This document shows positions 11,085 to 28,079 of a stretch of 59,724 nucleotides of DNA, piece after piece. Origin of the DNA: Myxococcaceae bacterium. Lineage in GTDB: Bacteria; Myxococcota; Myxococcia; Myxococcales; Myxococcaceae. The DNA lies in assembly GCA_017881265.1 (NCBI GenBank), contig JADGRA010000017.1, forward strand, positions 1 through 59,724, given 5' to 3'. The translations under genes were made by a program, and so were the position numbers. The stretch's first letter is position 1, and each line of letters opens with the position of its first letter. Under the pieces are notes generated by a model. That model was not told where the DNA came from. It did not search any database and worked only from the letters and a program-made list of their open reading frames with translations.

Positions 11085-12902
11085 TCACCACCCGCAGCGG
11101 CGTCCTTTGTTCTGCTCGGTGAGCCAGGCCTGTAGCGGGGCGAAGTACTCGAGCAGAGCACCGCCGTCCATCTTGCGTTCCCCGGTGAGGGCCTCCAGGG
11201 CATCGGGCCACGGGCGGCTGGCGCCGAGGGCCAGCATCGCCTCCAGACGCCGCCCCGCCTCCTTGTTGCCGTAGATGCTGCAGCCGTACAGCGGCCCCGT
11301 CACGCCAGCAGCGCGGCAGAGGGCGCGGTGGAACTGGAACTGGAGAACGCGGGCGAGGAAGTAGCGCGTGTATGGGACGTTGGCCGGCACGTGGTACTTG
11401 GCCCCCGGGTCGAAGTCGGCCTCGGTGCGGGGGACGGGCGGCGCAATCCCCTGGTCTCGCAGGCGGATGGCCCACCAGCCGGCGTTCAGCTGACTCGTCG
11501 GAATCTTCCCGCTGAAGACGTTCCATCGGTACTGGTCGATGTCCTTGCCAAACGGCAGGAAGGCCACCTTGGCCAGAGCGTCCTTCATCTGCTGGTTGAT
11601 GAGGGCCTGCTGGTTGACGGGCGGCAGCACGTCGAGGATGCCGACCTGCTTGTAGTAGCCCGGGTTGACGCTGAGCGCGATGGCGTCGCCGATGGCCTCG
11701 TGGAAGCCGTCGTTGGCTCCGTTTTGGAAGAGCGCCGGCAGCCGGTAGTACGCGTGGTAGTAGTAGTCGTGTCCGAGCTCGTGGTGGATGGTGACCAGGT
11801 CCTCCTCGTTGACCTTGATGCACATCTTGATGCGCAGGTCGTCGTGGAGGGTCACGTCCCAGGCCGAGGCGTGGCACACCACCTCGCGGTCCGCGGGCTT
11901 GGTGAACATCGACCGCTGCCAGAACGTCTCCGGCAGTTTGTCCAAGCCGAGCGAGAGGTAGAAGGCCTCGCCGCGCTTCACCAGCTTGATGGGGTCATAG
12001 CCTTTGGCCTTGAGGGCCGCGGTGATGTCGAGATTCCCCACGCCCTTGTAGGGTTCGACCAGCGGGTAGATGTTGGCCCACTCCTGCGCCCACATGTTGC
12101 CGAGCAGGTGGGCCGGGATGGGCCCTCCGTCCGGGATGCGCTGCTTGCCGTAGACGTCCTGTAGCTTGGCCCGCACGTAGCAGTGAAGCGCCTCGTACAA
12201 GGGCTTCACCTGGGCCCAGATGCGCTCGGTGTCCTGCTCGAAGTCGGCCGGGGGCATGTCGTAGGCGCTCCGCCAGAGGTCGCCCAGGTTGGCGAAGCCG
12301 TTGTCGCGCGCGCCCTGGTTGGCCACTTCGACGAAGCGGACGTACAGGGGCCGAATCTGCGCCCCCACCGCGTGCCAGCCCGTCCAGGCGTCGAGCAGCG
12401 CATCCCAGTCGCGGCTCTGGTCCATGACGTCGGAGAGCTGCTCGAGGTCGCGGCAGGGTCCCTTGCCGTCCTTGCCGCAATACTTGCCCTTGCCGTAGAG
12501 GCCCTCCATCTTCGCGCCGAGCTCGGTCAATTCCTTGCGCGCCTTGGCGTCGTTGGGCGCGAGCAGCGAGTTGTTGACCCGCAGCAGAAACAGCATCCGC
12601 GCTGTCTGCGGGTCGAGCTTCAGTCCCTGAAAGCGCTGCGCGTCCCGCAGCGCCTGCGCGGTGTAGGCGAGCATCGCGTCGTCCGCGTCCGCCGCCAGCC
12701 GCTCGGTGTCATCGGTGATGTAGGTGTTCTTCACCCATTGGGCCGTGCCTTGCCGGGCGCCCAGCTGCAGCAGGTCCGCATTCAGCTTCTCGACGTAGGC
12801 CTTGACCTCCTCGGCGGTGGGGGGTTTGGGCGTCGGGGGCGCCGCGCCCGCCAGGGAGGCGATGAGGGCCGTCGCGAGCGTCAACAAGGGGGGCAGTTTC
12901 AT
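11085..12902 (-). CDS. M2-family peptidyl-dipeptidase (ACE-like)
   Basis: A 605-residue zinc metallopeptidase related to angiotensin-converting enzyme; such bacterial enzymes remove dipeptides from peptide C-termini. A signal peptide (PPLLTLATALIASLAGA) indicates export. The catalytic zinc motif HELGH spans H374 to H378, followed by the second metal ligand region DGFHEAIGD. Conserved M2 segments such as QVGILDVLPP and the C-terminal PYTRYFLARVLQFQFHRALC are present. The ATG at 12902 places the start at the signal peptide; the longer ORF to 13346 overlaps the divergent SixA gene. Monocistronic, about 100 bp from the divergent gene. Confidence 0.93.
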   Translation of the reverse strand: MKLPPLLTLATALIASLAGAAPPTPKPPTAEEVKAYVEKLNADLLQLGARQGTAQWVKNTYITDDTERLAADADDAMLAYTAQALRDAQRFQGLKLDPQTARMLFLLRVNNSLLAPNDAKARKELTELGAKMEGLYGKGKYCGKDGKGPCRDLEQLSDVMDQSRDWDALLDAWTGWHAVGAQIRPLYVRFVEVANQGARDNGFANLGDLWRSAYDMPPADFEQDTERIWAQVKPLYEALHCYVRAKLQDVYGKQRIPDGGPIPAHLLGNMWAQEWANIYPLVEPYKGVGNLDITAALKAKGYDPIKLVKRGEAFYLSLGLDKLPETFWQRSMFTKPADREVVCHASAWDVTLHDDLRIKMCIKVNEEDLVTIHHELGHDYYYHAYYRLPALFQNGANDGFHEAIGDAIALSVNPGYYKQVGILDVLPPVNQQALINQQMKDALAKVAFLPFGKDIDQYRWNVFSGKIPTSQLNAGWWAIRLRDQGIAPPVPRTEADFDPGAKYHVPANVPYTRYFLARVLQFQFHRALCRAAGVTGPLYGCSIYGNKEAGRRLEAMLALGASRPWPDALEALTGERKMDGGALLEYFAPLQAWLTEQNKGRRCGW

Positions 12903-13001
12903 AGGGGGCGGCACCCTACCAGGGCCCTCGCCGGTTGGGGGCGGACAGCTTTCGGCAGTGCCAAGGTCTGGACAGCCACGCGGCTTCCGTGCCCAGGGTG
13001 A

Positions 13002-13514
13002 ATGGCCATGCAGCCGACCGAGCTCTACCTCGTCCGTCACGGACTGGCCGGGGAGGCAGACCCCACCCGGGACGACCGTCAGCGTCCCCTCACCCCGGCT
13101 GGCCGCCAGCGGACGCGGGCCGTCGCCAAACGCCTTCAGGCGCTGGACCTGCACTTCGACGGCCTCCTCAGCAGTCCGCTGGTGCGTGCCACGCAGACGG
13201 CCGAGTTGCTGCGGCGCGCCGGGCTGTGCAAGCGCGTGGAGGAGTCGGACGTCCTCGCCCCGGGTGGAGACTTCGAGGCTTGGCTGCGCTGGCTCCGGCA
13301 CTGGCGCCGCAGCCCCGGCCACCGGCGCCTCTGCCTGGTGGGGCATATGCCGGCCCTCGCCGCCTGGGCGGAGCTGCTGGTCTTCGGGCAGCCCCAGCAG
13401 CGTCTGGTGCTGAAGAAGGCCGGGGTGCTGGGCCTCACCCTGCCCGCTCGCGGCTCGCCCCTCGCGCGCAGCGCGCTCTTCCTCCTGGCCTCGCCGAGGT
13501 ACCTCCTGGAATGA
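13002..13514 (+). CDS. sixA: SixA-like phosphohistidine phosphatase
   Basis: A 170-residue histidine-phosphatase-superfamily protein. The catalytic RHG motif is near the N-terminus (YLVRHGLAG), followed by RPLTPAGRQRT, SSPLVRATQTAE and the second catalytic histidine in LVGHMP. Length and motifs match SixA, which dephosphorylates phosphohistidine in HPt domains. The start is ATG 13002 or ATG 13008. The stop overlaps the start of a glycosyltransferase gene (ATGA), so the two are coupled, which is not an obvious functional pairing. Confidence 0.85.
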   Translation: MAMQPTELYLVRHGLAGEADPTRDDRQRPLTPAGRQRTRAVAKRLQALDLHFDGLLSSPLVRATQTAELLRRAGLCKRVEESDVLAPGGDFEAWLRWLRHWRRSPGHRRLCLVGHMPALAAWAELLVFGQPQQRLVLKKAGVLGLTLPARGSPLARSALFLLASPRYLLE

Positions 13515-14599: not shown

Positions 14600-15754
14600 T
14601 CAGCTGCCCTGGAAGGCGAGCGCGGCCTCCACCGCCGCCCGCGGCCGGACGACGCCCCAGCCCTGCCGGTCGACGTCGATGCCGGAGACGCGCTCGGCCG
14701 TCCGGAGGAGGAGGCGCTTCACCTGGCCGGGCGTCAGGCCGGGGTTGGCTTCCAGCATCTGGGCCACGACGGACGTGACGATGGGAGCGGCGAAGCTGGT
14801 GCCGTCGACGCGCTTGTAATGCTCATCGATGACGGAGCCGTCGTGCAGCCCGGCGGCGATGACTTGTCGAATGAGGTAGGCCGGCCGCCCCTCCACCGCA
14901 TCCAGCGGGGCAAACACGCCGCGGTTTTGGGCAATGAGGGCGGTCAGCTCGCTGTCGGGCGCCGCGTCGAGCGTCGCCAGCAGGGCCGCCTCCCGCGCCG
15001 TCGGCGTTCCGGGGAGGATGGGGGCAGCGACGAAGTCCGCCAGGGTGATGACCTCGGGCTTCTGCACGCCGTCGATGGTGGGGCCGTGCGAGGAGCGGTA
15101 CGGGAGCAGACGGCCGAGGCTGGGGTCGCCGAAGTCATTGACGCCGCCCACGCTGATGACGGCCGGGACACTGGCCGGGGGGACGACGTAGCCGGGCCGC
15201 TCGCCGTTGTTGCCGACGGCGGCCACCACCACAATCCCCGCCCGGATGGCGGCCTCGGCGAAGCGCGACAGCGTGTCCTCGAGGTAGGACACTTCGTAGT
15301 CGCCGCCGCAGGAGATGTTGAGGATGCGGATGTCGTAGCGGGGCCGATTGACCAGCACCCATTCAATGCCCCGGGTGATGTCGTCGTGGTGCACCCGCGA
15401 CAGCGTCCCGACCTTCACCAGCACCAGCCCGAGGTCCGGGGCGAGCGAGCGGTAGCGCCCGCCGGACAGCGCCCCGTTTCCGGCGGCGACGACGCTGGAC
15501 ATCATCCCGTGCCAGCTCGACGCGTCCACTGAGGTGAGGTGCTCCACCCCCGACTGGCGGCCGATGAGGTCCACGTACCCGTGAATCCGGCTGTGGGGCC
15601 GGGTGAGGTCCGGGTGCGCGTAGAAGCCCGAGTCGAGGAAGGCCGCCACCACGCCCTTGCCGGTGAAGCGCGGGTCCGCGCCGAGGCGCTCGGCCACGGA
15701 GAGCGGCGCGGCGGGCGGCTCGGTCGGGGGAACGGAGCGGGGAGCGGTGCTCAT
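14600..15754 (-). CDS. subtilisin-like serine peptidase (S8), no signal peptide
   Basis: A 384-residue S8 peptidase with all three catalytic residues: D41 in FLDSGF, H82 in SSWHGMM and S320 in DGTSFAAP; AAVGNNGE supplies the oxyanion-hole asparagine. There is no signal peptide or prodomain, so it looks like an intracellular or co-exported protease. Between about residues 230 and 300 there is an insertion carrying acidic and hydrophobic stretches (PDSELTALIAQNRG). It is divergent from, and 87 bp away from, an amidotransferase gene that opens a ligase operon; it may process the product or a ligase of that system. That link is inference from position. Confidence 0.88.
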   Translation of the reverse strand: MSTAPRSVPPTEPPAAPLSVAERLGADPRFTGKGVVAAFLDSGFYAHPDLTRPHSRIHGYVDLIGRQSGVEHLTSVDASSWHGMMSSVVAAGNGALSGGRYRSLAPDLGLVLVKVGTLSRVHHDDITRGIEWVLVNRPRYDIRILNISCGGDYEVSYLEDTLSRFAEAAIRAGIVVVAAVGNNGERPGYVVPPASVPAVISVGGVNDFGDPSLGRLLPYRSSHGPTIDGVQKPEVITLADFVAAPILPGTPTAREAALLATLDAAPDSELTALIAQNRGVFAPLDAVEGRPAYLIRQVIAAGLHDGSVIDEHYKRVDGTSFAAPIVTSVVAQMLEANPGLTPGQVKRLLLRTAERVSGIDVDRQGWGVVRPRAAVEAALAFQGS

Positions 15755-15841
15755 CGAAGATTGACCCCCCTCTTATCGCGTCCCGGCCTAGCAGGGGCTG
15801 ACACCATCACGGCCTCTGAGGTACTCCAGTACGGCCAGCTT

Positions 15842-16750
15842 ATGGAGCCCCTCCGACTCAGCCTCGTCGACATGAACAACGGGGTCCCCAACGAAGCGGT
15901 GCGCTGCTTCCGGCGCCTACTGGACGCCTTCGCAGCGCGCGTCCGGGCGGCCAACCCCCGGCTTTCGGTGGTGCAGGAGCACGTCCAGCCCCGAAACCTG
16001 GGCGAGCTCCCCTCCCGGCAGGCGGACCTCATCCTCTCCTCCGGAGGACCCGGCTCTCCGCATGACGGCTGGGAGGAGCCGTGGTGCACGGGCTACCGCC
16101 TGTTTCTGGACAGCGTCCTTGACCGGACCGCGCAGCACCCGGACACCGCCCCGGCGGCCTTCGTCGTGTGCCACTCCTTTGAGCTTGCCATCCAGCACTT
16201 CCGCTTCGCCGAGATGGCGCGGCGCCAGGAGCTGAAGTTCGCGATTTTCCCGGCCTATGTCACCGAGGAGGGAAGCCGGTGTGACTTCCTCCAGCCCTTT
16301 GGCGAGCGCCTCTTCGTCTGGGAACACCGCCGCTACCAGGCCGTTGCCCTCGACGTCCCCCGGCTGCACCAGCAGCAGGGCGCCCTGCTGGCGCGCGAGA
16401 GCCGCCCGGGCCGCGACGACAAGGGCGAGGCCGTGCTCGCCTTGCGTTTTGGGCCGGGGCTGGAAGGGAGCCAGTTTCACCCGGAGGCGGACCGGCCCGG
16501 CGTCCTCGCCTGGATTCACCGGCCCGAGCACACCACCGCCCTGCGCGACGCCTATGGCCACTCGCTGCTGGAGCGAATGATGAAGACGCTCGACGACCCC
16601 GGGCGGCTGGCGCGGACGTACGCCTTACTCATCCCCGGCTGGCTCACCTCCCGCTTCAACCGCCTGGCGGCCGTGCGCGGCCTGCGGCCGATTCCGCCTC
16701 CGGTGCAGAGCATGCGCGAGTTCGAGGCGCAGGTGCCCCTCGCCTCGTAG
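15842..16750 (+). CDS. class I glutamine amidotransferase-like protein
   Basis: A 302-residue protein with the GATase class I triad: nucleophile C110 in VVCHSFELAIQ, H213 and E215 in QFHPEA. The usual GxCxG elbow is replaced by VCHSFEL, so it is a divergent member. An N-terminal segment (LSLVDMNNGVPNEAV, later LILSSGGPGSPHDG) matches the class I fold. The C-terminal 90 residues are an extension without recognised domain. The ATG at 15842 is favoured because homology begins there; the longer ORF upstream runs into the opposing peptidase gene. It is the first gene of a plus-strand set with an ATP-grasp ligase and a YbdK-type ligase, and could supply ammonia or remove a gamma-glutamyl group. Confidence 0.82.
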   Translation: MEPLRLSLVDMNNGVPNEAVRCFRRLLDAFAARVRAANPRLSVVQEHVQPRNLGELPSRQADLILSSGGPGSPHDGWEEPWCTGYRLFLDSVLDRTAQHPDTAPAAFVVCHSFELAIQHFRFAEMARRQELKFAIFPAYVTEEGSRCDFLQPFGERLFVWEHRRYQAVALDVPRLHQQQGALLARESRPGRDDKGEAVLALRFGPGLEGSQFHPEADRPGVLAWIHRPEHTTALRDAYGHSLLERMMKTLDDPGRLARTYALLIPGWLTSRFNRLAAVRGLRPIPPPVQSMREFEAQVPLAS

Positions 16751-16833
16751 GCCCCGGCTTCTGCTATGTCCGTACGAGGCGTCCGGCCCCCAGCGCACTG
16801 CTGGGACGGGGTGCTGTGGAGGACGGACGGGGG

Positions 16834-17814
16834 ATGACTGAACGCATCGGGATTCTGGTCGGGCAGGAGCAGAGTTTTCCGCAGGCCTTCATCGCCAAGG
16901 TGAACGAGACACCGGGCTTTCGTGCCGAATTCGCGCGGGTGGGCGGAACGCCGGAGCGCTTCGTCTCTCCCTACCGCGTGCTGGTGGACCGCATCAGCCA
17001 CGAGGTGCCCTTCTACCGGTACCATCTCAAGGCGGCCTCGCTCGGTGGCGCCTACGTCATCAACGACCCCTTCTGGTGGAGCGCGGACGACAAGTTCTTC
17101 GGCTACTCGCTCGCCGCGCAGATTGGCGTGACGGTGCCGCGTACGGTGATGTTGCCGTCCAAGGCCTACGTCCCCTCCATCGACCCAGGGAAGAGTCTGC
17201 GCAACCTCGAGTACCCCCTCGACTGGGACGGCATCGCCAAGTACGTCGGTTTCCCCGCCATCCTCAAGCCAGCCGACGGCGGAGGCTGGAAGAACGTCAG
17301 CCGGATCAACAACCTGGAGGAATTGCACCGCGTCTACGACCAGAGCGGCACGCTGGTCATGACGCTGCAGCAATTCATCGACTTCGAGGACTACGTCCGC
17401 TGCATCTGCATCGGCAAGGAATTCATCCTCCCCATCCAGTATGACCCGAAGCGCAGGTGCTACCTCGAGTCGGACCACTTCCTGCCAGCGGCGCTCGAGT
17501 ACAGGGTCCTCGACGGCGCCTGGGCGCTCAACCACGCGCTGGGCTACGACATGAACTCGGTCGAGTTCGCCATCAAGGACGGAGTGGCCTACGCCATCGA
17601 CTTCACCAACCCGGCGCCGGACATGGACGTGCATTCCATCCTCCCCAAGCACTTCCACATCGTGGTGGACCAGATGGCGAAGTTCGCCATCGGCTGCGCG
17701 CGCGAGGGCCGCACCAACCACGACGGGTTCCCCTTCCGGCGCTTCCTCCAGGCCCCCCACCCCCGCCCGCCCGGCCACGGAGAGGGCTTCGCGGCCAAGC
17801 GAGCGCGGCCGTGA
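16834..17814 (+). CDS. ATP-grasp ligase (paralogue of the 23588-24550 gene)
   Basis: A 326-residue RimK-like ATP-grasp protein. Visible segments are LVDRISHEVPFYRYH, NDPFWWSADDKF, the ATP-binding LKPADGGGWKNVSR and the metal-binding C-terminal YDMNSVEFAIKDG with FTNPAPDMD. It shares most of these, in order, with the ATP-grasp gene on the other arm of the cluster (LVDRISHEVPSY, LKPHWGGGWRDVSR, YDMNTVEFAIHDG), so they are paralogues. Such enzymes join a carboxylate to an amine or thiol through an acyl phosphate. Its stop overlaps the GTG of the YbdK-type gene (GTGA), so the two are made together. Substrates unknown. Confidence 0.88.
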   Translation: MTERIGILVGQEQSFPQAFIAKVNETPGFRAEFARVGGTPERFVSPYRVLVDRISHEVPFYRYHLKAASLGGAYVINDPFWWSADDKFFGYSLAAQIGVTVPRTVMLPSKAYVPSIDPGKSLRNLEYPLDWDGIAKYVGFPAILKPADGGGWKNVSRINNLEELHRVYDQSGTLVMTLQQFIDFEDYVRCICIGKEFILPIQYDPKRRCYLESDHFLPAALEYRVLDGAWALNHALGYDMNSVEFAIKDGVAYAIDFTNPAPDMDVHSILPKHFHIVVDQMAKFAIGCAREGRTNHDGFPFRRFLQAPHPRPPGHGEGFAAKRARP

Positions 17815-18917
17815 TTGACGGACAATTCACGCTCGGGGTCGAGGAGGAGTACCAAATCGTCCATCCCGAGACCCGGGACCTTCGTTCCTACGTCAGCGCG
17901 ATTATGGAGGAGGGCGGCCGCACCGTCCTCCGCGAGCGCGTGCGGCAGGAGCTGCACCAGTCGATGGTGGAAGTCGCCACCACCATCTGCAACGACGTCG
18001 GCGAGGTGCAGTCGCAACTGGTGGAGATGCGCGGCGAGCTCGACCGGCTGGCGCGCAAGGGCGGCCTGCGCATCGTGGCCGCCAGCACCCACCCCTTCAG
18101 CGACTGGACGACGCAGCAGATTACCGAGTCGGACCGCTACCACAACATCGTCAACGACATGCAGGACCTGGCGCGGGCCAACCTCATCTTCGGGCTCCAC
18201 GTCCACGTCGGCATCAAGGACAAGCAGGTGGCCGTGGCCCTGGCCAACCAGGTCCGCTACTTCCTGCCACACCTGCTGGCGCTCTCCTGCAGCTCGCCCT
18301 TCTGGCTCGGGCGCAAGACCGGGCTGATGAGCAACCGCAGCCACATCTTCAAGCGCTTTCCCCGGACTGGCATCCCCGACGAGTTCGAGAGCTACGAGCA
18401 GCTGGAGAACCTGGTCAAGCTGTTGGTGAAGACCCACTGCATCGACACCGGCAAGAAGCTGTGGTGGGACGTCCGGGCGCACTACCTCTACGACACGGTG
18501 GAGATTCGCATCTGCGACATGCCCACCTCGATGAAGGACACGCTGGCGCTGGTGGCGCTGGCCCAGGCGCTGATGGCCAAGCTGTACCTCATGTACCAGC
18601 GCAACACCGCCTGGCGCAGCTACGGGCGCTCGCTCATCGAGGAGAACAAGTGGCGGGCGCAGCGCTACGGCACCGACGCGATGATGATTGACTTCGGCAT
18701 GCTCTGCGAACGTCCCTTCCCGGAGCTCGCCGACGAACTGGTGGAATTCGTCGCCGAGGCCTCCGACCAGCTCGGCACCACCGGCGCGCTGCAGCACATT
18801 CGGCAGATGGCCCGCGCCGGTACGTCGGCCCACCGGCAGATTGAGGTGTGGGAGCGCACCAAGGACATGCGCGCGGTGGTGGACTGGCTGATTGAAGAGA
18901 CGATGCGGGGCGTCTGA
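17811..18917 (+). CDS. YbdK-type carboxylate-amine ligase (GCS2 family)
   Basis: A 368-residue member of the GCS2/YbdK family of glutamate-cysteine-ligase-like enzymes. It starts with the family signature GVEEEYQIV, followed by ELHQSMVEVAT, GLHVHVGI and DVRAHYLYDTVEIRICD. It lacks the size of a classical plant or proteobacterial GshA. YbdK enzymes show weak glutamate-cysteine ligase activity, and many are thought to join glutamate to unknown amines. The GTG start overlaps the upstream ATP-grasp stop. Together with the amidotransferase and ATP-grasp genes it forms a compact plus-strand set that converges on the minus-strand ligase operon 12 bp downstream. Confidence 0.9.
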   Translation: MIDGQFTLGVEEEYQIVHPETRDLRSYVSAIMEEGGRTVLRERVRQELHQSMVEVATTICNDVGEVQSQLVEMRGELDRLARKGGLRIVAASTHPFSDWTTQQITESDRYHNIVNDMQDLARANLIFGLHVHVGIKDKQVAVALANQVRYFLPHLLALSCSSPFWLGRKTGLMSNRSHIFKRFPRTGIPDEFESYEQLENLVKLLVKTHCIDTGKKLWWDVRAHYLYDTVEIRICDMPTSMKDTLALVALAQALMAKLYLMYQRNTAWRSYGRSLIEENKWRAQRYGTDAMMIDFGMLCERPFPELADELVEFVAEASDQLGTTGALQHIRQMARAGTSAHRQIEVWERTKDMRAVVDWLIEETMRGV

Positions 18918-18929
18918 CTCACGTCGCGC

Positions 18930-19313
18930 TCAGCCGGCCGGGGCGAGCTCCATGGCAAACAGCGCCCCCTGAAGTTCGTACGGGTCGTCACCCTGGGCCC
19001 AAGCCCGGTGGGTGGCACACGGGCAGGACCGGCGCTGGGGCGTCGGGCAGCTGAGCAGCCCCTCCTCGAGGATGCGCAGCGTCGCCTCGGGCGCTGCATA
19101 CCCCCAGTGCCGCCAGGACTCGCCAGCGCCACGACGTGACTCCTCGTAGACGGCCACCGCGCCCGCGCCGCAGGCGCGACAACGCGCCAGCTGCACCTGC
19201 ACCTCGTCGCTGTCGGCGCCCGGGGGCAGCTCCAGGGTACATCCCAGCGTCAGCGTCGGCTGGCCGCAGGCGTAGCAGCGGAAGCACCCGGGGCCTGGCG
19301 GGGGCGGTTGCAT
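18930..19313 (-). CDS. small Cys-rich zinc-ribbon-like protein
   Basis: A 127-residue protein with CxxC pairs CYAC, CRAC and a CPC group: an N-terminal FRCYACGQPTLTLGC and RCRACGAGAVAVY form a likely zinc ribbon, and SCPCATHRAW lies near the C-terminus. Between them is a helical segment (LRILEEGLLSCP). There is no signal peptide. It is the last gene of the minus-strand ligase operon, 32 bp after the permuted ATP-grasp gene, and may be an accessory or acceptor protein for it. I do not recognise a named family. The start at 19313 is chosen because the N-terminus before it in the longer ORF is unrelated low-complexity sequence. Confidence 0.6.
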   Translation of the reverse strand: MQPPPPGPGCFRCYACGQPTLTLGCTLELPPGADSDEVQVQLARCRACGAGAVAVYEESRRGAGESWRHWGYAAPEATLRILEEGLLSCPTPQRRSCPCATHRAWAQGDDPYELQGALFAMELAPAG

Positions 19314-19345
19314 GGCGGCATACCCACCGACCCGGGCGCGGCCGC

Positions 19346-20545
19346 TCAGGCCCGCCACAGGCCGACCGAGCCCCCCACCCAGGTGAGGCCTTTGTTCTGG
19401 TCCACGCCCAGCATCTTCCCGCGGGAAAGCCGGACCAGGTGGATGATTGGCTCGAGCGCGGGGGCGGCCGGCGGCCGCAGCAACATGACGCGCACCTCGG
19501 CCTTCACCGGCGAGCCGTCGGGGGCGTGGATGGCAGGGGCGTAGGTGACTTTCTCCTGAAGCACCCAGCCATGGCGTTGCTCGGCCGGCACCCGGGAGAT
19601 GTCCTCTTGGGTGACGTCGATGACGACGCCCGAGCCGGCGAAGGAGAAGAGTGGCTTCAGCACGTAGCCCGACAGGTCGGCGGGCAGCGTCCCCACCTCG
19701 GAGAGGAAGGTGGACCTGGGGACGGCCGGGTGCCGGAGGAAGGGAAGACTGTACTTGCTCCAGGGCCAGTACCAGTTGGGGTGGCTGCACCAGGTGACGT
19801 CGAGGGACTCGTTCCAGGCGAAAGGCAGCCGGTAGCCCTTGTGTTCCAGCTCATCGAAGACCATCCGGTTGTAGATGCGCCGCACCGGCACCAACCGGCC
19901 GTCCTTGCGCCGGAAGAGCTGCCGCCCCTGCTTCACCAGCTGCGTCGCGCAGACCGACTCGACGCCGAAGAGGCGTTCGGTGGCGACGAAGTCAGGAACC
20001 GTTTTCTGCCGCTCCGGCTCGAAGTCCACCAGGGCCACCGCCTCGGGCGCCTCACCGCCGAGGATGGTGTCGCGCATCAGCCGCATGCCTTCCTCGCGCG
20101 GGCGGACGAAGCAGCTCCAGCCGCCGGCCAGCCCGGGCAGGGTCTGGAATTCGGCGGCCCACGCGTCGGCGAAGTACGTCATCATCGCGTAGCCCGAAGG
20201 AAAGGCCTGTAGCTCCACCACCTTCCCCTCCAGGCCGCCGGCGGGCCCCGGGGTGATGGCGAAGTCGACCTGCACGCAGTTGGGCAGCGGGTCCATCCCC
20301 GGCGTGTCGTACTGAGAGGGAATGACTTTCATCAGCTGCCCCAGCAGCGCGGGCTGGGCCAGCTGCTGGACAATCTCCAAGGCGCTCCGGGTGAGCGAGT
20401 CCCGCAGGGCGGGCGTCATGAAGAAGGGCGTCTCGGCCAGCGCGAACGGGATGGGGCCAAGCTGCGCTTCCAGCCGGGCACGGTAGCGGCCGTACAGCTC
20501 GGGCGTCCAGGCCCGGTTGAAGGCGGCGCGGTAGGCAGCATCCAT
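19346..20545 (-). CDS. circularly permuted-type ATP-grasp ligase
   Basis: A 399-residue protein. The N-terminal half carries NCVQVDFAITPG and KVVELQAFPSGY. The C-terminal half holds an ATP-grasp pattern: YVLKPLFSFAGSGVVIDV, GWVLQEKVTY and PVKAEVRVMLL. This order and the middle segments are like glutathionylspermidine-synthase-type, circularly permuted ATP-grasp proteins. It would join a carboxylate to an amine. It begins 21 bp after another ATP-grasp gene and is followed by the zinc-ribbon protein, so the three are likely one transcript. The family assignment at the fold level is fair; the substrate is unknown. Confidence 0.7.
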   Translation of the reverse strand: MDAAYRAAFNRAWTPELYGRYRARLEAQLGPIPFALAETPFFMTPALRDSLTRSALEIVQQLAQPALLGQLMKVIPSQYDTPGMDPLPNCVQVDFAITPGPAGGLEGKVVELQAFPSGYAMMTYFADAWAAEFQTLPGLAGGWSCFVRPREEGMRLMRDTILGGEAPEAVALVDFEPERQKTVPDFVATERLFGVESVCATQLVKQGRQLFRRKDGRLVPVRRIYNRMVFDELEHKGYRLPFAWNESLDVTWCSHPNWYWPWSKYSLPFLRHPAVPRSTFLSEVGTLPADLSGYVLKPLFSFAGSGVVIDVTQEDISRVPAEQRHGWVLQEKVTYAPAIHAPDGSPVKAEVRVMLLRPPAAPALEPIIHLVRLSRGKMLGVDQNKGLTWVGGSVGLWRA

Positions 20546-20566
20546 GGGGCGCAGGTCCCTCCTTTG

Positions 20567-21745
20567 TCAGTGTGCTGGCCGGTCCATGGCCGGAAGCGTG
20601 GTCGAGTGGTCACGGCAAAGGCGCTGGGCGTAGTCCGAAAGCAGCGCCTGCACCCGCTCGAAGCTGGGGGAGTGCACCACCAGCCCCGCGTGGTACGGCT
20701 CATCGGCGCGGAGCCAGACCTCCGGGTCGGCGTAGGCCGAGACGTCCGGATGCTCCTCCCGGGCCAGCGTCATGAGCAGCCCTCCGTACTCCGTCCTCCG
20801 GGGGGGAAGCTGGTAGGCGGCACCGTCAATCTCGACGTTTGCCCACTCCTCCCAGAGGTTGAGCCCGGTGGCCGCCTCCACCATGTCGGCGGTGTAGGCG
20901 CCGCCCACCCGGGCGGACGTCTCCAGCATGTACAGGGTGCCGTCCGGAGAGCGGATGAATTCCACGTGGCAAACGCCCTGCACCATCCCCAACTCCTCGA
21001 GAATGCGGGCGTTGAATGCCCGCAGGCCCTGGTCCACCGGGCCTCCCCGCTGGACGGTGTGCGAGGTGTAGACGCCGCCCCCGTGCGCCACGTCGAAGGG
21101 TGGCGTTCCACAGCGGTGCACTTCGCAGAACAGCACGCGGCGGTCCTGGACGATGGAGTCGACGTGGTAGACGTCGCCCGGCAGGTACTTCTCGAGCAGG
21201 AAGTAGGACTGTCGGTCCCCCAGGGCGTCCAGCGTCCTCCACAGCTGGTCCGGCGACTGCACCTTGGTGATGCCCGCCGCGCTGGCCTCGCTCCGGGGCT
21301 TCAGCATCCACGGCGGCGGGACGCGTTCCATGAAGTCCCGTAACTCGTCGTAGTTGAGGACCCGGACGAAGCGCGGGACGGCCAGGCCGGCGGCGCCGGC
21401 CCGGGTGCGCATGGCCAGCTTGTCGCGGAAGTACCGCGCGGTAGTGTCCCCCATCCCCGGCAGTCGCAGGTGCTCGCGCAGGGCGGCGGCCGTCTCCACG
21501 TCGTAGTCGTCGAGCGCCACGACGCGGTCAAACACGTGCGTGCGGGCCAGGTACGCCACCGCGTGCAGGGTGTGGTGCAGCGGGCTGCCGTCCGGCTGGG
21601 CGAAGACGTCCACCAGCGCCTGGCGCGGCCAGGGCCGGTCCAGCAGCTTCGCCTGGGTGAAGAGGTACACCTTGGCGCCGCGTCGGTGTGCCTGGACGAG
21701 GAAGCGCTCGCCTTTGAAGTAACTGGCCAGCGCCAACACTCTCAT
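20567..21745 (-). CDS. ATP-grasp carboxylate-amine ligase
   Basis: A 392-residue ATP-grasp protein of the carbamoyl-phosphate-synthase/biotin-carboxylase-like type. It has an N-terminal Rossmann preATP-grasp domain (RVLALASYFKGERFL, VFDRVVALDDYDVETAA), then PPWMLKPRSEASAAGITKV and the metal-binding GVCHVEFIRSPDGTLYMLE with VGGAYTADM. These are classic ATP-grasp features, distinct from the RimK-like pair nearby. The ATG at 21745 starts the preATP-grasp fold. There are 85 bp to the M61 gene upstream and 21 bp to the next ligase. It is the third of four different ATP-grasp ligases in this block. Confidence 0.88.
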   Translation of the reverse strand: MRVLALASYFKGERFLVQAHRRGAKVYLFTQAKLLDRPWPRQALVDVFAQPDGSPLHHTLHAVAYLARTHVFDRVVALDDYDVETAAALREHLRLPGMGDTTARYFRDKLAMRTRAGAAGLAVPRFVRVLNYDELRDFMERVPPPWMLKPRSEASAAGITKVQSPDQLWRTLDALGDRQSYFLLEKYLPGDVYHVDSIVQDRRVLFCEVHRCGTPPFDVAHGGGVYTSHTVQRGGPVDQGLRAFNARILEELGMVQGVCHVEFIRSPDGTLYMLETSARVGGAYTADMVEAATGLNLWEEWANVEIDGAAYQLPPRRTEYGGLLMTLAREEHPDVSAYADPEVWLRADEPYHAGLVVHSPSFERVQALLSDYAQRLCRDHSTTLPAMDRPAH

Positions 21746-21830
21746 CGGCCGGTCTTCCACGGACGCGGGGGCCTCCTGGGGGACTTTCCCCGACTCTCCG
21801 GCAATAGCACGGACTGTCCACCGGACGCCT

Positions 21831-23591
21831 TTAGAGGACCCTCTGGACGCCATGAAAGTTGTCGTAGGCGTCCAGCGGAATAGCCGCGCCTGGCGCCGGC
21901 TGGAAGGCGGCGCCGCCGAGCCACGCCCGGACGTGCTCGGCCTGGGCCGCGCTGCCGGCCCACACAAGCTGGGAGACCTCGCTGCGCCGGCCTACGGGCA
22001 CCTGCAGGCTCCACGTCCGCTCGGCACGCCGCACGGTGAGGGACACCGTCGCCCGGCGCTCCAGGCAGTAGCGCAACAGGCCGAGGCGGTACGGCCGCCC
22101 TTCCACGGCCAGCAACTCGTCCCCGGCGGCCAGGCCCGCCTCTGCCGCCGGGGAGGCGTCGGCGACGTCGCGGACCGCCGGCCCGGTGTCGTCCTGCAGC
22201 ACGACGCCGAGAAAGCCCACCTCGTGACAAAGGACGTCGAAGCCGAGGCTTTGCAGGGACGCCAGCGTCTGCACACCCGCCGCCTCCCGAACCCCGCGGG
22301 CGACTACTTCCCCGGACCGGGCGCTGCGGGCCGAGAAGAAACCCAGCACGTCCTCGCTGGTATACCCGGTGGCACGCCCGGCCCAGCTGGAAAACAAGTC
22401 ACGCATCGCCGCATCAAGGGAGTCGCCCTGCTGGCGCAGGGCGACGTCCACGTCGAAGGCGACCAGCATCCCCTGGTCGTAGTAATCGAGGCTGGCATTC
22501 ACCGCGCCGGCGAAGCGGTGGTGGTTGAGGAAGGTGGCGCGGCTCGAGTCTTCCGCGGTGACCCGGGCCCAGGCCGGCCGCATCGCCAGGTGGCGGTGGT
22601 AGTTCACCAGGTTGGACAGCACCGCCGACGCCGGCAGCCAACCGGCGCGGGCGCCCAGCACAAACTCGTAGTAGCGGGTGAAGCCCTCGGTGAGCCACAG
22701 CCCGTCCGGGAAGGAGCCGGCCAGCAAGTCCGGGGCGCCGAGCGGTGCCGCCTTCAGCCGGGCGCCATTCCAGGCGTGGAAGAGTTCATGGGCGCACACC
22801 CGGAGGGCCTCTGCGCGCTTGGCCTTCCGGGCGAAGACTTCCGGGTCGAGCGTCACCAGGGTGCTGGTGGCGTGCTCCATGCCCCAGCCGGAGCTGCCGC
22901 TGGTCTCGAAGATGAAGCTGTAGCCAGCGAAGGGAAAGCTGCCAAAAATGTCGTGGCAGCACTCGGCCAGCCGAGACAGTTCGCCGAGGAAGCCGGGGGC
23001 CTCCTCCTCGTAGCCGAGGGGCAGGGAGACGAAGAGGGCGGAGAACGCCGTCCCGCGCACCGTCCAGTCGGCGCGCGTCACCCTGCCGGCCACGACGGGC
23101 GTGTCCACCAGCGCGGCGTGGTTCTGGTAGCGAAAACGCCCCGCGGCGAGCCCGACTGCGCCCGCCGGGTGGTGCAGCGACCAGCCCTCGGGCAGCCGGT
23201 ACTCCACCTCGGGCGGCCCGGGAAGCTCCGGGGCGAAGGGGTAGCGGGTGGCGAGCAGCAGCGCCCACTCCTCGTCCACCAGCCCCGCAAACTCCGCGGT
23301 GGATGGGTCCCAGGCATTCAGCTGGGCGTGGACGCGCCGACGCGAGCCGCCGCCTTCCACGCGCCAGCCGCTCCAGCCATCCCGGGTGACGCGCAGCACC
23401 CCTCCCGTGGCCGCGTCCTCTGCCCAAAGCTGGAGGACGTCACGCCCGTAGCGCTGGAAGGCATAGGCCCCGGGCACCCAGGTGGGAACGGCGAGCCGAA
23501 GGGGCCCGTCGGGCACGCCTTCCAGCAAGAGGGTGAGCTTGAGCTGGTGACGGCGCGGCTCGACCTCGACGGTGTAGCGGTGCAGCGTCAT
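21831..23591 (-). CDS. M61 glycyl-aminopeptidase-like protein with PDZ domain
   Basis: A 586-residue zinc peptidase. The N-terminal beta domain (PTWVPGAYAFQRYGRDV) and the catalytic HELFH (H268, E269, H272, in VCAHELFHAWNG) with downstream LWLTEGFTRYYE match the M61 family. A C-terminal PDZ-like domain (ASPAAEAGLAAGDELLAVEG) is typical of this group. No signal peptide is visible, so it would act in the cytoplasm. Its ATG overlaps the stop of the upstream ATP-grasp gene (ATGA), so it is produced with a ligase, consistent with trimming glycine or another residue from a ligase product. That role is inference. Confidence 0.88.
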   Translation of the reverse strand: MTLHRYTVEVEPRRHQLKLTLLLEGVPDGPLRLAVPTWVPGAYAFQRYGRDVLQLWAEDAATGGVLRVTRDGWSGWRVEGGGSRRRVHAQLNAWDPSTAEFAGLVDEEWALLLATRYPFAPELPGPPEVEYRLPEGWSLHHPAGAVGLAAGRFRYQNHAALVDTPVVAGRVTRADWTVRGTAFSALFVSLPLGYEEEAPGFLGELSRLAECCHDIFGSFPFAGYSFIFETSGSSGWGMEHATSTLVTLDPEVFARKAKRAEALRVCAHELFHAWNGARLKAAPLGAPDLLAGSFPDGLWLTEGFTRYYEFVLGARAGWLPASAVLSNLVNYHRHLAMRPAWARVTAEDSSRATFLNHHRFAGAVNASLDYYDQGMLVAFDVDVALRQQGDSLDAAMRDLFSSWAGRATGYTSEDVLGFFSARSARSGEVVARGVREAAGVQTLASLQSLGFDVLCHEVGFLGVVLQDDTGPAVRDVADASPAAEAGLAAGDELLAVEGRPYRLGLLRYCLERRATVSLTVRRAERTWSLQVPVGRRSEVSQLVWAGSAAQAEHVRAWLGGAAFQPAPGAAIPLDAYDNFHGVQRVL

Positions 23592-24550
23592 CGCGTGGCA
23601 GGGCGCCCGAGCAGCGCATCCCACCGCCGCAAGGGCGCTGCGTCCGCATCCCGCGCAAGCTGCAGCAGGAGCTCCGCCATGTGCTCCACCACCCAGGCGA
23701 AGTGCGCCTCGCCGAGCGAGGCCAGGTCGAGGTCGGGAGCGGAGTTCATGAAGTCGATGGCGTAGGGCACGCCGTCGTGGATGGCAAACTCCACCGTATT
23801 CATGTCGTACCCGAGCGCCTCGCACAGCAGTCGCGCCTGCTGCTCGACGTGCGCCTCGAGCGCCTCCTCGAGCAGCGGCATGGACTCACTGGCCCGCTGG
23901 TACCGCTCGGCGTGGGGAAGCCGCGGGTCCCACAGCGCCGGTCGCACGTGGGTTTGGCCAATCACCAGACAGCGGACGTACTGCGTCCAGGTGACCTCGC
24001 TCTGCGCAATCATGGTGAGGTGTCCACTGCGGTCATAGGCTGCGAGCAGCTCCTCCTTGGTGGTGACGCGCGAGACGTCGCGCCAGCCCCCTCCCCAGTG
24101 CGGCTTCAGGTACAGGGGCAACCCCAGCTCGGCCACCAGCGCGTCCCAGTCCACCCAGTCCAGGTTGCGAAGCGAGTCCGGGGTGACGTCGGGCGCAGGC
24201 GTCTTGTTGGGCAACAGCACGGTGCGCGGGACGGCGACCCCGAGGGCGGCGGCCAGTCCCGCATCGAGAAACTTGTCGTCCACGGTGCGCCAGAACGGGT
24301 CATTCACCACGCGCGTGCCGTTGAGGGCGGCCAACTTGAGCCACGGCTGGTAGGAGGGCACCTCGTGCGAGATGCGGTCCACCAGCACGTCATAGGGGGG
24401 CCTGACGTCGGCGCGGGGCGCCTTCAGCTTCGGGAGGTCCAGCAGTACCCTCGGGTCGCGCCGGGCCACCTCCGCGGCGAGCGCCTCGGGGAAGCTGCGC
24501 TCCCGGCCCACCAGCAGGCCGATGCGGGGCCGCGCGCGCGGAGGTGTCAC
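23588..24550 (-). CDS. ATP-grasp ligase (paralogue of the 16834-17814 gene)
   Basis: A 320-residue RimK-like ATP-grasp protein, clearly the same family as the plus-strand ligase at 16834: shared segments are GRERSFPEAL, LVDRISHEVPSY, VVNDPFWRTVDDKF, PRTVLLPNK, LKPHWGGGWRDVSR and YDMNTVEFAIHDG. It probably forms an amide or similar bond to a related but different partner. The GTG start at 24550 overlaps the esterase stop (GTGA) and its stop overlaps the M61 start, so esterase, ligase and peptidase are tightly coupled. A longer ORF start at 24598 would overlap the esterase. Confidence 0.88.
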   Translation of the reverse strand: MTPPRARPRIGLLVGRERSFPEALAAEVARRDPRVLLDLPKLKAPRADVRPPYDVLVDRISHEVPSYQPWLKLAALNGTRVVNDPFWRTVDDKFLDAGLAAALGVAVPRTVLLPNKTPAPDVTPDSLRNLDWVDWDALVAELGLPLYLKPHWGGGWRDVSRVTTKEELLAAYDRSGHLTMIAQSEVTWTQYVRCLVIGQTHVRPALWDPRLPHAERYQRASESMPLLEEALEAHVEQQARLLCEALGYDMNTVEFAIHDGVPYAIDFMNSAPDLDLASLGEAHFAWVVEHMAELLLQLARDADAAPLRRWDALLGRPATR

Positions 24551-25308
24551 CAGCCCACCCGCTCGCTCAGGGCGTGGGGCAGCATGCGCCGCCACCACGG
24601 CCAGTCATGGTTGACGTCGTGGCCCCAGAGGTCGAGCTGGTGGGGAATCCCCTTTGCCGACAGGGCCTGGCTGAAGCGGATGGAGGCCTCGGGCGCCTCA
24701 TACGCCCCGCGACCGGAGGCGATGTAGAGACGCGCGCTGCGCAGCAGCTCCAGCGCCCGACCGTCGCTCAGCCCCGGCAGGTAGGAGTAGGGGTTGTTGA
24801 AGTAGACGTTGTCGTCGCCGTAGCCGTGCAGGTAGGTGGGCCCCAGGTCATAGAAACCACTCATGGCGATGAGGGTGTCGAAGAGGTCCGGCCGGCGCAG
24901 GACGGCGTTGGCCGCGTAGAAGGCACCGAAGCTTGCGCCCGTGGCGCCGATGCGCGCGCTGGGGTTTTGCAGGGCGCGGCGAATGTGCGGCACCACCTCC
25001 TCCTCGATGTAACCCGAATACAGCGCCTGGCGCCGGGCGGCCTCGGCCACACCCACCTCCTCGTTCATCCAGGCGTGCCGGTTGATGCTGTCGATGCTGA
25101 ATACCGTCACCCGGCCCGCCAGCAGCAGCGGTTCAACGGACTTGATGAGCCACATCCGCTCGGCCTCGAGGAAGTCCCCGGACGCGGTCGGCAGAAGCAG
25201 CAGCGCCCGTCCAAAGTGGCCGTACCGGACGATGGGCATGTCGAGCCCCAGGCGTGGGCTGTGCCAGCCGAAAATCTCGCGCCGCAGTGCGGGGTCGACG
25301 TAATTCAT
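24547..25308 (-). CDS. esterase, alpha/beta-hydrolase fold (COG4947-like)
   Basis: A 253-residue cytoplasmic alpha/beta hydrolase. The nucleophile elbow is GASFGAF, preceded by EEVVPHIRRAL, with acid and histidine candidates late in the protein (LWGHDVNHDWPWW). It resembles the uncharacterised esterase group often annotated COG4947. It opens the minus-strand ligase operon, 113 bp from a divergent kinase gene, and overlaps the next gene by four bases. Within a cluster of ligases it could release a product, cleave an ester intermediate or hydrolyse a substrate; none of this can be decided from sequence. Confidence 0.82.
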   Translation of the reverse strand: MNYVDPALRREIFGWHSPRLGLDMPIVRYGHFGRALLLLPTASGDFLEAERMWLIKSVEPLLLAGRVTVFSIDSINRHAWMNEEVGVAEAARRQALYSGYIEEEVVPHIRRALQNPSARIGATGASFGAFYAANAVLRRPDLFDTLIAMSGFYDLGPTYLHGYGDDNVYFNNPYSYLPGLSDGRALELLRSARLYIASGRGAYEAPEASIRFSQALSAKGIPHQLDLWGHDVNHDWPWWRRMLPHALSERVGW

Positions 25309-25421: not shown

Positions 25422-27164
25422 GTGACACAGATGAATAGCGCGCTCCAGCACCGGACGGCAGACCAGGGGGCAGGGCCTCAAGGCCTGCCGTCGGACTGGG
25501 AGCTCCGCATCGGGGCCGCGAGCGGCGCAGGCCGGGTGGTGGTGGTGCCGGCCGCCGGCGGCACCCTCGGCGCGGACCCCGGCTGCACCCTTCCGGTGAC
25601 GGGAGAGGGGGTGGCGGGGGTGCATCTGCGCATTGCCCGGCGCCTGGATGGCGCCCTGGGGTGGGAGTCGGCGACGTCCGCCTCCGTGCTGCTGGACGGT
25701 CAGCCGGCGCGCTCGGGGCCGCTGGTCGACGGCAGTCGCCTGCAGCTCGGGGCCGTGGTGGTGACGGTGGTGCGCCGTCCTGTGTCCGGCCTGCCCTCGC
25801 TTCCGTCGGCCCCCCCGGAGCCGCCGGACCAGCTGCTTGCGCCCGGGACGGTGCTCGGGGAGCGCTACCGCATCGAGCAAGTCATTGGCCAGGGAGGGAT
25901 GGGCACCGTCTACCGGGCGCAGCACCTCACCCTGGGAAAGACGTTCGCCGTCAAGGTGCTGAAGGCTATGCACAGCGCCCGGCCTGACTTCGTCGCCCGG
26001 TTTCAGCGCGAGGCGGTGGCCGCCAGCCAGATTCGCCACCCCGGCATCGTCGACGTCCTGGACTTCGGCCGGGCGGTGGAGGGCAGCTTCTACTGCGTCA
26101 TGGAGTACCTGGAGGGGGAGACGCTCGCCGCGCGGGTGGCGCGCCAGGGCGCCCTGCCGGTGGCGGAGGCGGTACGCGTGGGTCGCGACATGGCCCGCGC
26201 CCTGACCGCAGCCCACACCCAGGGCATTTTTCACCGCGACATCAAGCCGGAAAACGTCCTCCTCGTCCCGGTGACGGGCGCACCGGACACCGTCAAGCTC
26301 GTCGACTTCGGCATCGCGCGGCTGGTCGACCCGGCGCGCAACAGCCGGGAGACGGGCGAAGGCGTCATCCTCGGCACACCCCAGTACATGTCCCCGGAGC
26401 AGGCCTCCGGCCTCTCCCAGGACGCCCGGGCGGACGTCTATTCGCTCGGCGTCCTGCTGTGGGAACTCCTGGCCGGGGCGCCTCCCTTCCACGGGGCCAG
26501 TGCGACGCACGTGCTGGCCGCACACCTCCTCGAGCCGGCGCCGCGCCTGCCGCACACCGGCCCGCACGGGCCCATCCCGCGGCGCCTCGGACGGCTGCTG
26601 GTGCGGATGATGGCCAAGCGCCCCGAGGACCGGCCGGCGCGCATGCAGGACGTGGTAGCCGAGCTGGACGCCGTGCTGGCACCGCCCAGGCCCCGCGTGG
26701 GCTGGGCCGCCACCACGCTGGGGCTTCTGGCGGTGGCCTCCGCCGCGGGCGCCCTGGCTCTCTTCCTCGCGCGCCACCGCCAGCGTCCGCCAGGCGTGGT
26801 GCCCGTGGCGCAGGCGGCCCCGCTGCCCACCCCGGCTCCCCTCCCCGCCCCTCCGGCCGTCCTTCAAGGTGCACCCACGGTCGCGGCCGCCTCCCTTGCC
26901 CCGCGCGTCGCGCCCGCTGTGGCGGCGGTGGACATCTCCTCGGAGCCGCCGGGCGCAGCGGTGGTGGTGGAGGGACGGCCCCGGGGCGTTACGCCCGTGA
27001 AACTCCTCCTGCGCCAGGGGGCGCCGCAGCGGCTGGAGGTGAGTCGGCTGGGCTATGCATCCGAGACGCGCCTGGTGCGGCCGAGCCCCGGGTTGAGCGT
27101 CCACGTCACCTTGCAACCCCTCGCCCGCCCGTCCCTCCCGGACCTCAAAGATTCACCGTACTGA
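25422..27164 (+). CDS. Ser/Thr protein kinase with FHA-like and PEGA domains
   Basis: A 580-residue membrane kinase. The N-terminal about 110 residues look like a degenerate FHA domain (GTLGADPGCTLP, GVAGVHLRIARR). The kinase domain has the glycine loop GQGGMGTVY, the catalytic lysine in AVKVLK, HRDIKPENVLL, DFGIARL and PQYMSPEQAS, so it looks active. A transmembrane segment (TLGLLAVASAAGALALFLA) and a Pro/Ala-rich linker lead to a PEGA domain (ISSEPPGAAVVVEG). GTG 25422 or ATG 25431 can be the start. It precedes a TPR-PEGA gene by 48 bp and likely shares its transcript. Confidence 0.9.
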   Translation: MTQMNSALQHRTADQGAGPQGLPSDWELRIGAASGAGRVVVVPAAGGTLGADPGCTLPVTGEGVAGVHLRIARRLDGALGWESATSASVLLDGQPARSGPLVDGSRLQLGAVVVTVVRRPVSGLPSLPSAPPEPPDQLLAPGTVLGERYRIEQVIGQGGMGTVYRAQHLTLGKTFAVKVLKAMHSARPDFVARFQREAVAASQIRHPGIVDVLDFGRAVEGSFYCVMEYLEGETLAARVARQGALPVAEAVRVGRDMARALTAAHTQGIFHRDIKPENVLLVPVTGAPDTVKLVDFGIARLVDPARNSRETGEGVILGTPQYMSPEQASGLSQDARADVYSLGVLLWELLAGAPPFHGASATHVLAAHLLEPAPRLPHTGPHGPIPRRLGRLLVRMMAKRPEDRPARMQDVVAELDAVLAPPRPRVGWAATTLGLLAVASAAGALALFLARHRQRPPGVVPVAQAAPLPTPAPLPAPPAVLQGAPTVAAASLAPRVAPAVAAVDISSEPPGAAVVVEGRPRGVTPVKLLLRQGAPQRLEVSRLGYASETRLVRPSPGLSVHVTLQPLARPSLPDLKDSPY

Positions 27165-27212
27165 AGCGACTGGCAGCCTGCCGCCTTCTTGGTCTAAGGC
27201 TTTCGCCTGAGC

Positions 27213-28079
27213 ATGGTCGCGTTGGCCCTCGCCGTCGGGCTCCTCCTCAACACCCAGCCGGAGGAAGCGCGCGACCGCGCCCGCGACGCGTTCACCCAAG
27301 GCCAGGAGCTGTACCGCACTGGGGACTTCGCCGGGGCGCTCGCTGCCTTCCAGAAGGCCGAGGCCATCCAGCCCAGCCCGGCCACGCAGTACAACATCGG
27401 CCGCTGCCACGAGCGCCTGGGGCAGCTGCCGGACGCGGTGGCGGCCTATGAGCGCTACCTCTCGGAGGCCCCCGGCGCCCCGGACCACGACGCGCTCGCC
27501 GGGCACGTGGCGGAGCTTCGACGCCAAATCCCCCCGGTGGGGCACCTGAAAGTCTCCGTGGAGCCTCCCGGCGCCTCCGTCACGGTGGACCAAGCCGCCC
27601 CGGAACCTGCCCCCATCGACAAGCTGGTGCCGGCCGGACAACACCTGGTGCTCGCCGAGCTCAGCGGCTACACCCCTGCGCGCCGGGACGTGGAGGTGGT
27701 GGCCGGCGGCTCGCTGCAGCTCGAATTGACCTTGCGCCCGGTGGAGACACCGCCCGCGACGCGGGCGCCAGATGCGGCTGTGCGGCGGGACGTGCCCGCG
27801 CCCGCCCCGCCCCCCAGCGGGGGGCGCACCTGGACATACGTCGCCCTGGCGGTGGCGGTGGTGGCCGCCGGCGTCGGCGTGGGCTTCGGCCTCAGCTCGA
27901 AGTCCGCCCAGGACAACCTGCAGTCGCGCGTGCACACCCAGGCGCAGGCCCAGCAGCTGTATGACACCGCCAACAGCCGCGCCGTCACCGCCAATGGCTT
28001 CTACGTGGGCGCGGCGGTGGCCGGGGCCGCCGCTATTACCCTCTTCTTCCTCGAGCCGGCAGCGGGCCACTCGCCATGA
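27213..28079 (+). CDS. TPR and PEGA-domain membrane protein
   Basis: A 288-residue protein: a hydrophobic N-terminus (ALALAVGLLLN) likely acting as a signal peptide, two TPR-like repeats (YRTGDFAGALAAFQKAEAI, ERLGQLPDAVAAYERYL), a PEGA domain (SVEPPGASVTVDQ), a linker rich in Pro/Ala, and two hydrophobic segments at the C-terminus (YVALAVAVVAAGVGVGFGL and YVGAAVAGAAAITLFFL). It follows the kinase gene and overlaps the next gene by four bases (ATGA), so it probably works with both. PEGA and TPR parts suggest an envelope scaffold or adaptor. Myxobacteria carry many such kinase-linked PEGA proteins of unknown function. Confidence 0.85.
   Translation: MVALALAVGLLLNTQPEEARDRARDAFTQGQELYRTGDFAGALAAFQKAEAIQPSPATQYNIGRCHERLGQLPDAVAAYERYLSEAPGAPDHDALAGHVAELRRQIPPVGHLKVSVEPPGASVTVDQAAPEPAPIDKLVPAGQHLVLAELSGYTPARRDVEVVAGGSLQLELTLRPVETPPATRAPDAAVRRDVPAPAPPPSGGRTWTYVALAVAVVAAGVGVGFGLSSKSAQDNLQSRVHTQAQAQQLYDTANSRAVTANGFYVGAAVAGAAAITLFFLEPAAGHSP

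Follow-up and report, generated by a model that had tools for sequence, protein, structure and literature searches.

A conserved set of amide ligases and hydrolases in a Myxococcaceae genome, a candidate pathway for carrier-free assembly of a short peptide or amide

The stretch of DNA analyzed here (the window, 59,724 nucleotides) comprises positions 1 to 59,724 of contig JADGRA010000017.1 from the draft genome of a Myxococcaceae bacterium (assembly GCA_017881265.1; 4.4 Mb, 81 contigs), and the system under study is a ten-gene block at positions 14600-25308 in which half of the genes encode amide ligases (GR1, GR2, CPSL, GSPS, and GCS2). Genes were called by combining open reading frames (ORFs), GC content by codon position, and family searches against Pfam and NCBIfam. 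All ten genes listed in a preliminary description of this DNA, made from the letters and their ORFs, were confirmed (Table 1). In agreement with that description, they form two convergent operons, GAT-GR1-GCS2 (plus strand) and EST-GR2-M61-CPSL-GSPS-ZnR (minus strand), and the S8 subtilisin gene is divergent at the left.

Table 1. Genes of the block, with positions in the window
Gene	Predicted product	Positions	Strand	Evidence or remark
S8	Subtilisin	14600..15754	-	Pfam PF00082 E 3.5e-34; orthologues beside the same ligases in Myxococcota and Chloroflexota
GAT	Class I GATase-fold enzyme	15842..16750	+	Triad in 10-sequence alignment, AF2, Foldseek
GR1	Ddl/RimK-type ATP-grasp ligase	16834..17814	+	NCBIfam and PDB matches
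GCS2	GCS2/YbdK carboxylate-amine ligase	17811..18917	+	PF04107 E 9.4e-63; TIGR02050, NF010039; PDB 1r8g
ZnR	Small zinc-ribbon-like protein	18930..19313	-	
GSPS	GSPS/eukaryotic-glutathione-synthetase-fold ATP-grasp ligase	19346..20545	-	AF2 model and Foldseek
CPSL	ATP-grasp_4 ligase with similarity to L-amino acid (dipeptide) ligases	20567..21745	-	PF13535; 4wd3, 3vot
M61	Glycyl aminopeptidase-like protein with PDZ domain	21831..23591	-	PF05299, PF17899, PDZ
GR2	Paralogue of GR1	23588..24550	-	Probable GTG start at 24550
EST	Esterase, alpha/beta-hydrolase	24547..25308	-	PF00756

The close spacing of the genes had been taken as a sign of coordinated expression. This holds for the 4-bp overlaps at two junctions (GR1/GCS2 and M61/GR2), for a third overlap, with the EST stop, that the probable GTG start of GR2 would give, and for the short gaps between GSPS and CPSL (21 bp) and between ZnR and GSPS (32 bp), but not for the 12-bp GCS2/ZnR junction, which is convergent and therefore no evidence of co-expression. 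The gaps of 83-87 bp are less tight. Promoter and terminator scans gave no signal above shuffled sequence.

The scores of GCS2 place it fully within the YbdK family, as proposed from the letters: it exceeds both curated cut-offs (304.2 vs 176.4 bits for TIGR02050; 490.5 vs 371 bits for NF010039) and matches the YbdK structure 1r8g at E 3e-49 in a PDB search. The same family holds Escherichia coli YbdK as well as the TIGR02050/PRK13515 carboxylate-amine ligases but, unlike these, the GCS2 of the block is tied to four ATP-grasp enzymes and to hydrolases. CPSL, previously labelled CPSase-like, is an ATP-grasp enzyme (PF13535) for which the label can be sharpened: similarity across the full domain relates it to the L-amino acid ligases (LALs; 4wd3, E 8.8e-18; 3vot, BL00235, E 4.2e-8), from which it differs in being embedded in a multi-ligase set. 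GR1 and GR2 had been called RimK-like paralogues; the paralogy stands (46-49% identity), but RimK membership does not, their scores being 37.9 and 24.9 bits, respectively, against a TIGR00768 cut-off of 143.4 bits, with D-Ala-D-Ala ligases as the best PDB matches. The two proteins fall in separate clades of the tree, each fully supported, so that a recent origin of GR2 by copying of GR1 is not supported. The first tree grouped GR2, a long branch of odd composition, with the type seen in Chloroflexota/Gemmatimonadota, in keeping with its position next to EST, but this placement was not robust, and the approximately unbiased (AU) test does not reject a single Myxococcota clade (p 0.093).

Neither GSPS nor GAT has a Pfam match, and both assignments come from structural models. 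The AlphaFold (AF2) model of GSPS indicates the GSPS/eukaryotic glutathione synthetase fold over most of the chain (Foldseek matches the GSPS-like protein 3n6x, E 8.2e-13, template modelling (TM) score 0.59, and 2hgs, TM 0.63; the matches include YgiC, the E-64 ligase Cp1B, and the glutathione synthetases of human and yeast), so that the resemblance to glutathionylspermidine synthase suggested earlier is borne out by fold and not by Pfam. GSPS has this ATP-grasp fold in common with Cp1B of the E-64 pathway (PMC12568646) and with the YgiC/YjfC peptidyl-polyamine synthetases, but it is only ~12-16% identical to these enzymes, lies in another genomic context, and has a Gln in place of the last Asn of the active-site region (D94 and E111-L-Q113). 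The GAT model, together with the triad C110-H213-E215, invariant in an alignment of 10 sequences, points to a class I glutamine amidotransferase (GATase) fold with a Cys-His-Glu triad, in agreement with the original assignment; Foldseek matched class I GATases, gamma-glutamyl peptidase 1, DnfC, and MetA. Fold and triad are those of the PuuD-type C26 gamma-glutamyl hydrolases and class I GATases but, unlike these, GAT matches no Pfam family and constitutes a family of its own, seen here only in Myxococcota. Catalytic motifs are intact in the hydrolases as well: D41, H82, N182, and S320 of S8 are invariant in 15 orthologues, and the HExxH motif (H268, E269, H272) and E302 of M61, as well as G124-x-S126-x-G128 and H234 of EST, are conserved. 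A signal peptide is not obvious in S8, as judged by eye.

For the analysis of conservation, loci were gathered around GR1 relatives, and separate searches for GAT and GSPS were run over 195 genomes of Myxococcota (loci and genomes are denoted below by L and G numbers). The joint recurrence of the block genes in numerous independent genomes goes beyond chance. S8-GAT-GR1-GCS2 is found across Myxococcota families, the CPSL/GSPS pair also recurs, and in L025/L044 the two-operon layout is almost complete and near-identical, GSPS-CPSL-M61-EST facing S8-GAT-GR1-GCS2 in convergent orientation. GAT had strong matches in 14 of the 195 genomes and GSPS in the same 14 and in one more, a co-occurrence with Fisher probabilities of 2.7e-19 by genome and 2e-11 by genus, both inflated by relatedness. 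Among the 14 loci with a strong GAT match, the short extract contained S8 in 13, and GR1 was likewise present in 13. Linkage alone fails to explain the co-occurrence, because GAT and GSPS are ~350 kb apart in G053; the unlinked GSPS adjoins CPSL in that genome and in G044 and G056, and lies within ~2 kb of it in G049. The preliminary description had held that the idea of a system would fall if the genes were not co-conserved; the ligases and hydrolases are co-conserved, across Myxococcota and in other phyla.

The additional genome with GSPS matches, the distant G191, has three diverged copies (L168, L169, L170; 30-35% identity) without other block genes. In a third Myxococcota version (L037, L038, L041, L042), a 410-aa GR1-like ligase is accompanied by an esterase and by a GCS2-like protein fused to CBS domains, with one to three LAL-type ATP-grasps in most of these loci and an S51-like peptidase beside the cluster in L041.

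A GR1 profile search of genome contigs yielded at least 558 relatives, and gene context was read in the best 80 of these loci. Conservation of GR1 extends over at least six phyla (Myxococcota, Chloroflexota, Acidobacteriota, Gemmatimonadota, Melainabacteria, and Planctomycetota). An EST-GR-F5-GCS2 arrangement is found in Chloroflexota, Gemmatimonadota, Melainabacteria, and some Acidobacteriota, and EST adjoins a GR-type ligase in the first three of these as it does in the window; in several Acidobacteriota loci, the GR ligase stands alone within the available stretch. In some Gemmatimonadota, the arrangement is preceded by two LAL-like ligases and another esterase and is followed by a C26 GATase. 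Several Chloroflexota carry, in front of EST-GR-F5-GCS2, an S8 orthologue with a C-terminal CBM48 domain that is far closer to the S8 of the window than is the other S8 of the window's own genome. In loci that span 20 kb or more, partners concentrate around the GR gene, with 64 at a distance of up to 5 kb vs 9 at 5-10 kb. F5 is a permuted ATP-grasp that bears a distant resemblance to CP_ATPgrasp_2, with a score below the cut-off, and in which R-x-D and E-x-N are invariant; this pattern matches the active site of Cp1B, where mutation of R139, D141, E163, and N165 impairs activity (PMC12568646). The F5 and GSPS profiles align weakly (hhalign probability 24%), and their kinship thus rests on fold type, not on profile comparison. 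The Chloroflexota S8 orthologues at L075:6990-8861, L087:5656-7515, and L110:7905-10592 start with a CxxC...CxxC segment at the N-terminus and carry a CBM48/AMPK1_CBM domain at the C-terminus, and the L110 frame additionally includes a PfkB kinase.

The best explanation for the block, and one that we consider probable, is the assembly of a short peptide or amide without a carrier and independently of nonribosomal peptide synthetases (NRPSs), by a system with its own turnover enzymes: ligases and matching hydrolases co-inherited, in varying combinations, across at least six phyla suggest a small peptide-like compound that is made and recycled. The building of a short peptide, one of the functions put forward before, fits the enzyme families found. 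The ligases would need only free acids, amines, and ATP, and the hydrolases would cut ester, gamma-glutamyl, or peptide bonds. GCS2 would join the gamma-carboxylate of glutamate, or of a similar acid, to an amine; CPSL, GR1, GR2, and GSPS would each add one building block via an acyl-phosphate; GAT would either supply ammonia for amide formation or, by analogy with the C26 enzyme that takes its place in other phyla, hydrolyse a gamma-glutamyl bond; and EST, S8, and M61 would trim or recycle the product. We infer that all these enzymes act on one product, probably containing a gamma-glutamyl linkage, and the order of steps and the biological role are put forward in the same sense. A glutathione pathway is unlikely, and the block is probably not the glutathione route of its host, given that the genome has strong GCS2 and GshB matches elsewhere, outside the block.

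Several observations weigh against this proposal. Co-conservation amounts to functional linkage and is not proof of a common product, and the loci outside Myxococcota were chosen by GR1 similarity, not at random. Inside the block there is no transporter and no tailoring enzyme. The models of GAT and GSPS (predicted local distance difference test (pLDDT) 86 and 80, respectively) were built on shallow alignments of 10 and 6 sequences, and the activity of GSPS is less certain because Q113 stands where Cp1B and F5 have Asn. The notion of the whole ten-gene set as a system survives for a core of ligases and hydrolases, but the zinc-ribbon protein has a homologue in none of the other loci examined and M61 is conserved in very few of them (with synteny in L025/L044 and L034), which leaves a conserved system of fewer than ten genes; the zinc-ribbon gene is probably accessory or lies outside it.

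A more far-reaching reading, which we regard as rather unlikely, is that a cytosolic multi-ligase system found in at least six phyla builds a non-ribosomal tag or cofactor-like peptide that its own subtilisin and gamma-glutamyl hydrolase remove or mature, which would make the product a new small peptide cofactor or protein modifier. Protein tagging proper, in which the ligases extend a side chain or the C-terminus of a protein by one or more amino acids, in the manner of RimK, Pup ligase, and TTL, while S8, M61, and GAT remove the tag or degrade the target, we judge unlikely. It is kept as a rival mainly on account of the subtilisin, which appears cytosolic, is a conserved partner in two phyla, and fits a protein substrate better; the Ddl/RimK-type and GCS2 folds include tagging enzymes, and the lack of a transporter in the block also agrees with a protein target. 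However, GR1 and GR2 lie far below the RimK cut-off, a tag gene would not fit into the intergenic gaps of the block, none of which exceeds 113 bp, and no proteasome, Anbu, or alpha-E domain protein was found there, nor was a Pup-like or carrier gene seen. GCS2-like ligases beside a GATase-like peptidase, without Pup-like ORFs, have moreover been read as makers of glutathione-like peptides and not as agents of protein conjugation (PMC2588565), in line with the peptide assembly preferred here.

That the product is a short, amidated cytoplasmic peptide serving as an osmolyte or in stress, like N-acetylglutaminylglutamine amide (NAGGN) or glutathionylspermidine, with the GATase giving the terminal amide, seems quite unlikely. 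Such a compound would suit a block without an exporter, the combination of GATase, ligases, and peptidase follows the logic of the NAGGN operon, and the GSPS fold resembles the peptidyl-polyamine synthetase YgiC; yet GAT is of class I whereas the NAGGN GATase is of class II, dipeptides of this kind need fewer than four or five ligases, and no NCBIfam model of the NAGGN system matches any block protein. The least probable case, a very doubtful one, is the chance adjacency of unrelated modules with different products (S8-GAT-GR1-GCS2, CPSL-GSPS, and M61-GR2-EST): they are unlinked in G053, G044, G049, and G056, GR2 and M61 occur in some genomes only, and the GR2 clade stands apart from GR1 without a robust deeper placement, but S8-GAT-GR1-GCS2 and CPSL-GSPS share one and the same set of 14 genomes among the 195, even where they are unlinked, and equivalents of several modules share one cluster in other phyla.

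Known systems were also compared with the block, and several were rejected. The LysX/LysW system is excluded by score (31.3 vs a TIGR02144 cut-off of 275.6 bits) and by the zinc-ribbon protein, which ends in ...ELAPAG, lacks the EDWGE tail of LysW, and is itself not conserved. The NAGGN osmoprotectant system fails in that its GNAT/ATP-grasp, class II GATase, and M42 models are absent among the NCBIfam matches. The predicted COG2308/alpha-E/Anbu tagging system was discarded, with no alpha-E, transglutaminase, or CP_ATPgrasp Pfam domain in the block, as was pupylation, for which Pup, PafA, and the proteasome were sought within the block and not found. The gaps that exclude a tag gene inside the block also leave no room there for the precursor gene of a graspetide, a ribosomally synthesized and post-translationally modified peptide (RiPP), although such a gene may lie elsewhere. 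Searches for anti-phage defence matched generic subtilase models only, and none of the five block proteins tried had a PHROG match that would indicate phage origin.

Neither the enzyme classes nor the notion of gene neighbourhoods of this kind is new: Iyer, Abhiman, Burroughs, and Aravind reportedly predicted in 2009 amidoligase neighbourhoods of ATP-grasp enzymes, GCS2/GS-like ligases, and peptidases, and inferred peptide synthesis or tagging. A literature search, outside which that survey fell, returned no paper on this gene set or its product. If the linkage is functional, it points to a peptide-like metabolite or modification made without ribosomes or NRPSs in six phyla, many members of which are hard to grow, by a cluster likely to escape tools that search for NRPS or RiPP signatures. 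Being small, soluble, and compact, the set should lend itself to expression in E. coli, and versions from Myxococcota are carried by the cultured Hyalangium versicolor H56D21, Minicystis rosea DSM 24000, and Polyangium fumosum DSM 14668, which makes the question of the product directly testable.

On the right, divergent from EST, positions 25422-28079 encode a Ser/Thr kinase whose C-terminus carries a PEGA domain, and a TPR-PEGA protein comes next; kinase-like genes lie near GCS2 in L055, L057, and L062 too. At 28076-31180 is a gene for a large protein that contains three stretches of Big_2 (bacterial Ig-like) type and in which second-position GC is raised. To the left of the block, positions 11085-13346 encode an M2 peptidase of the angiotensin-converting enzyme family (E 2e-221).

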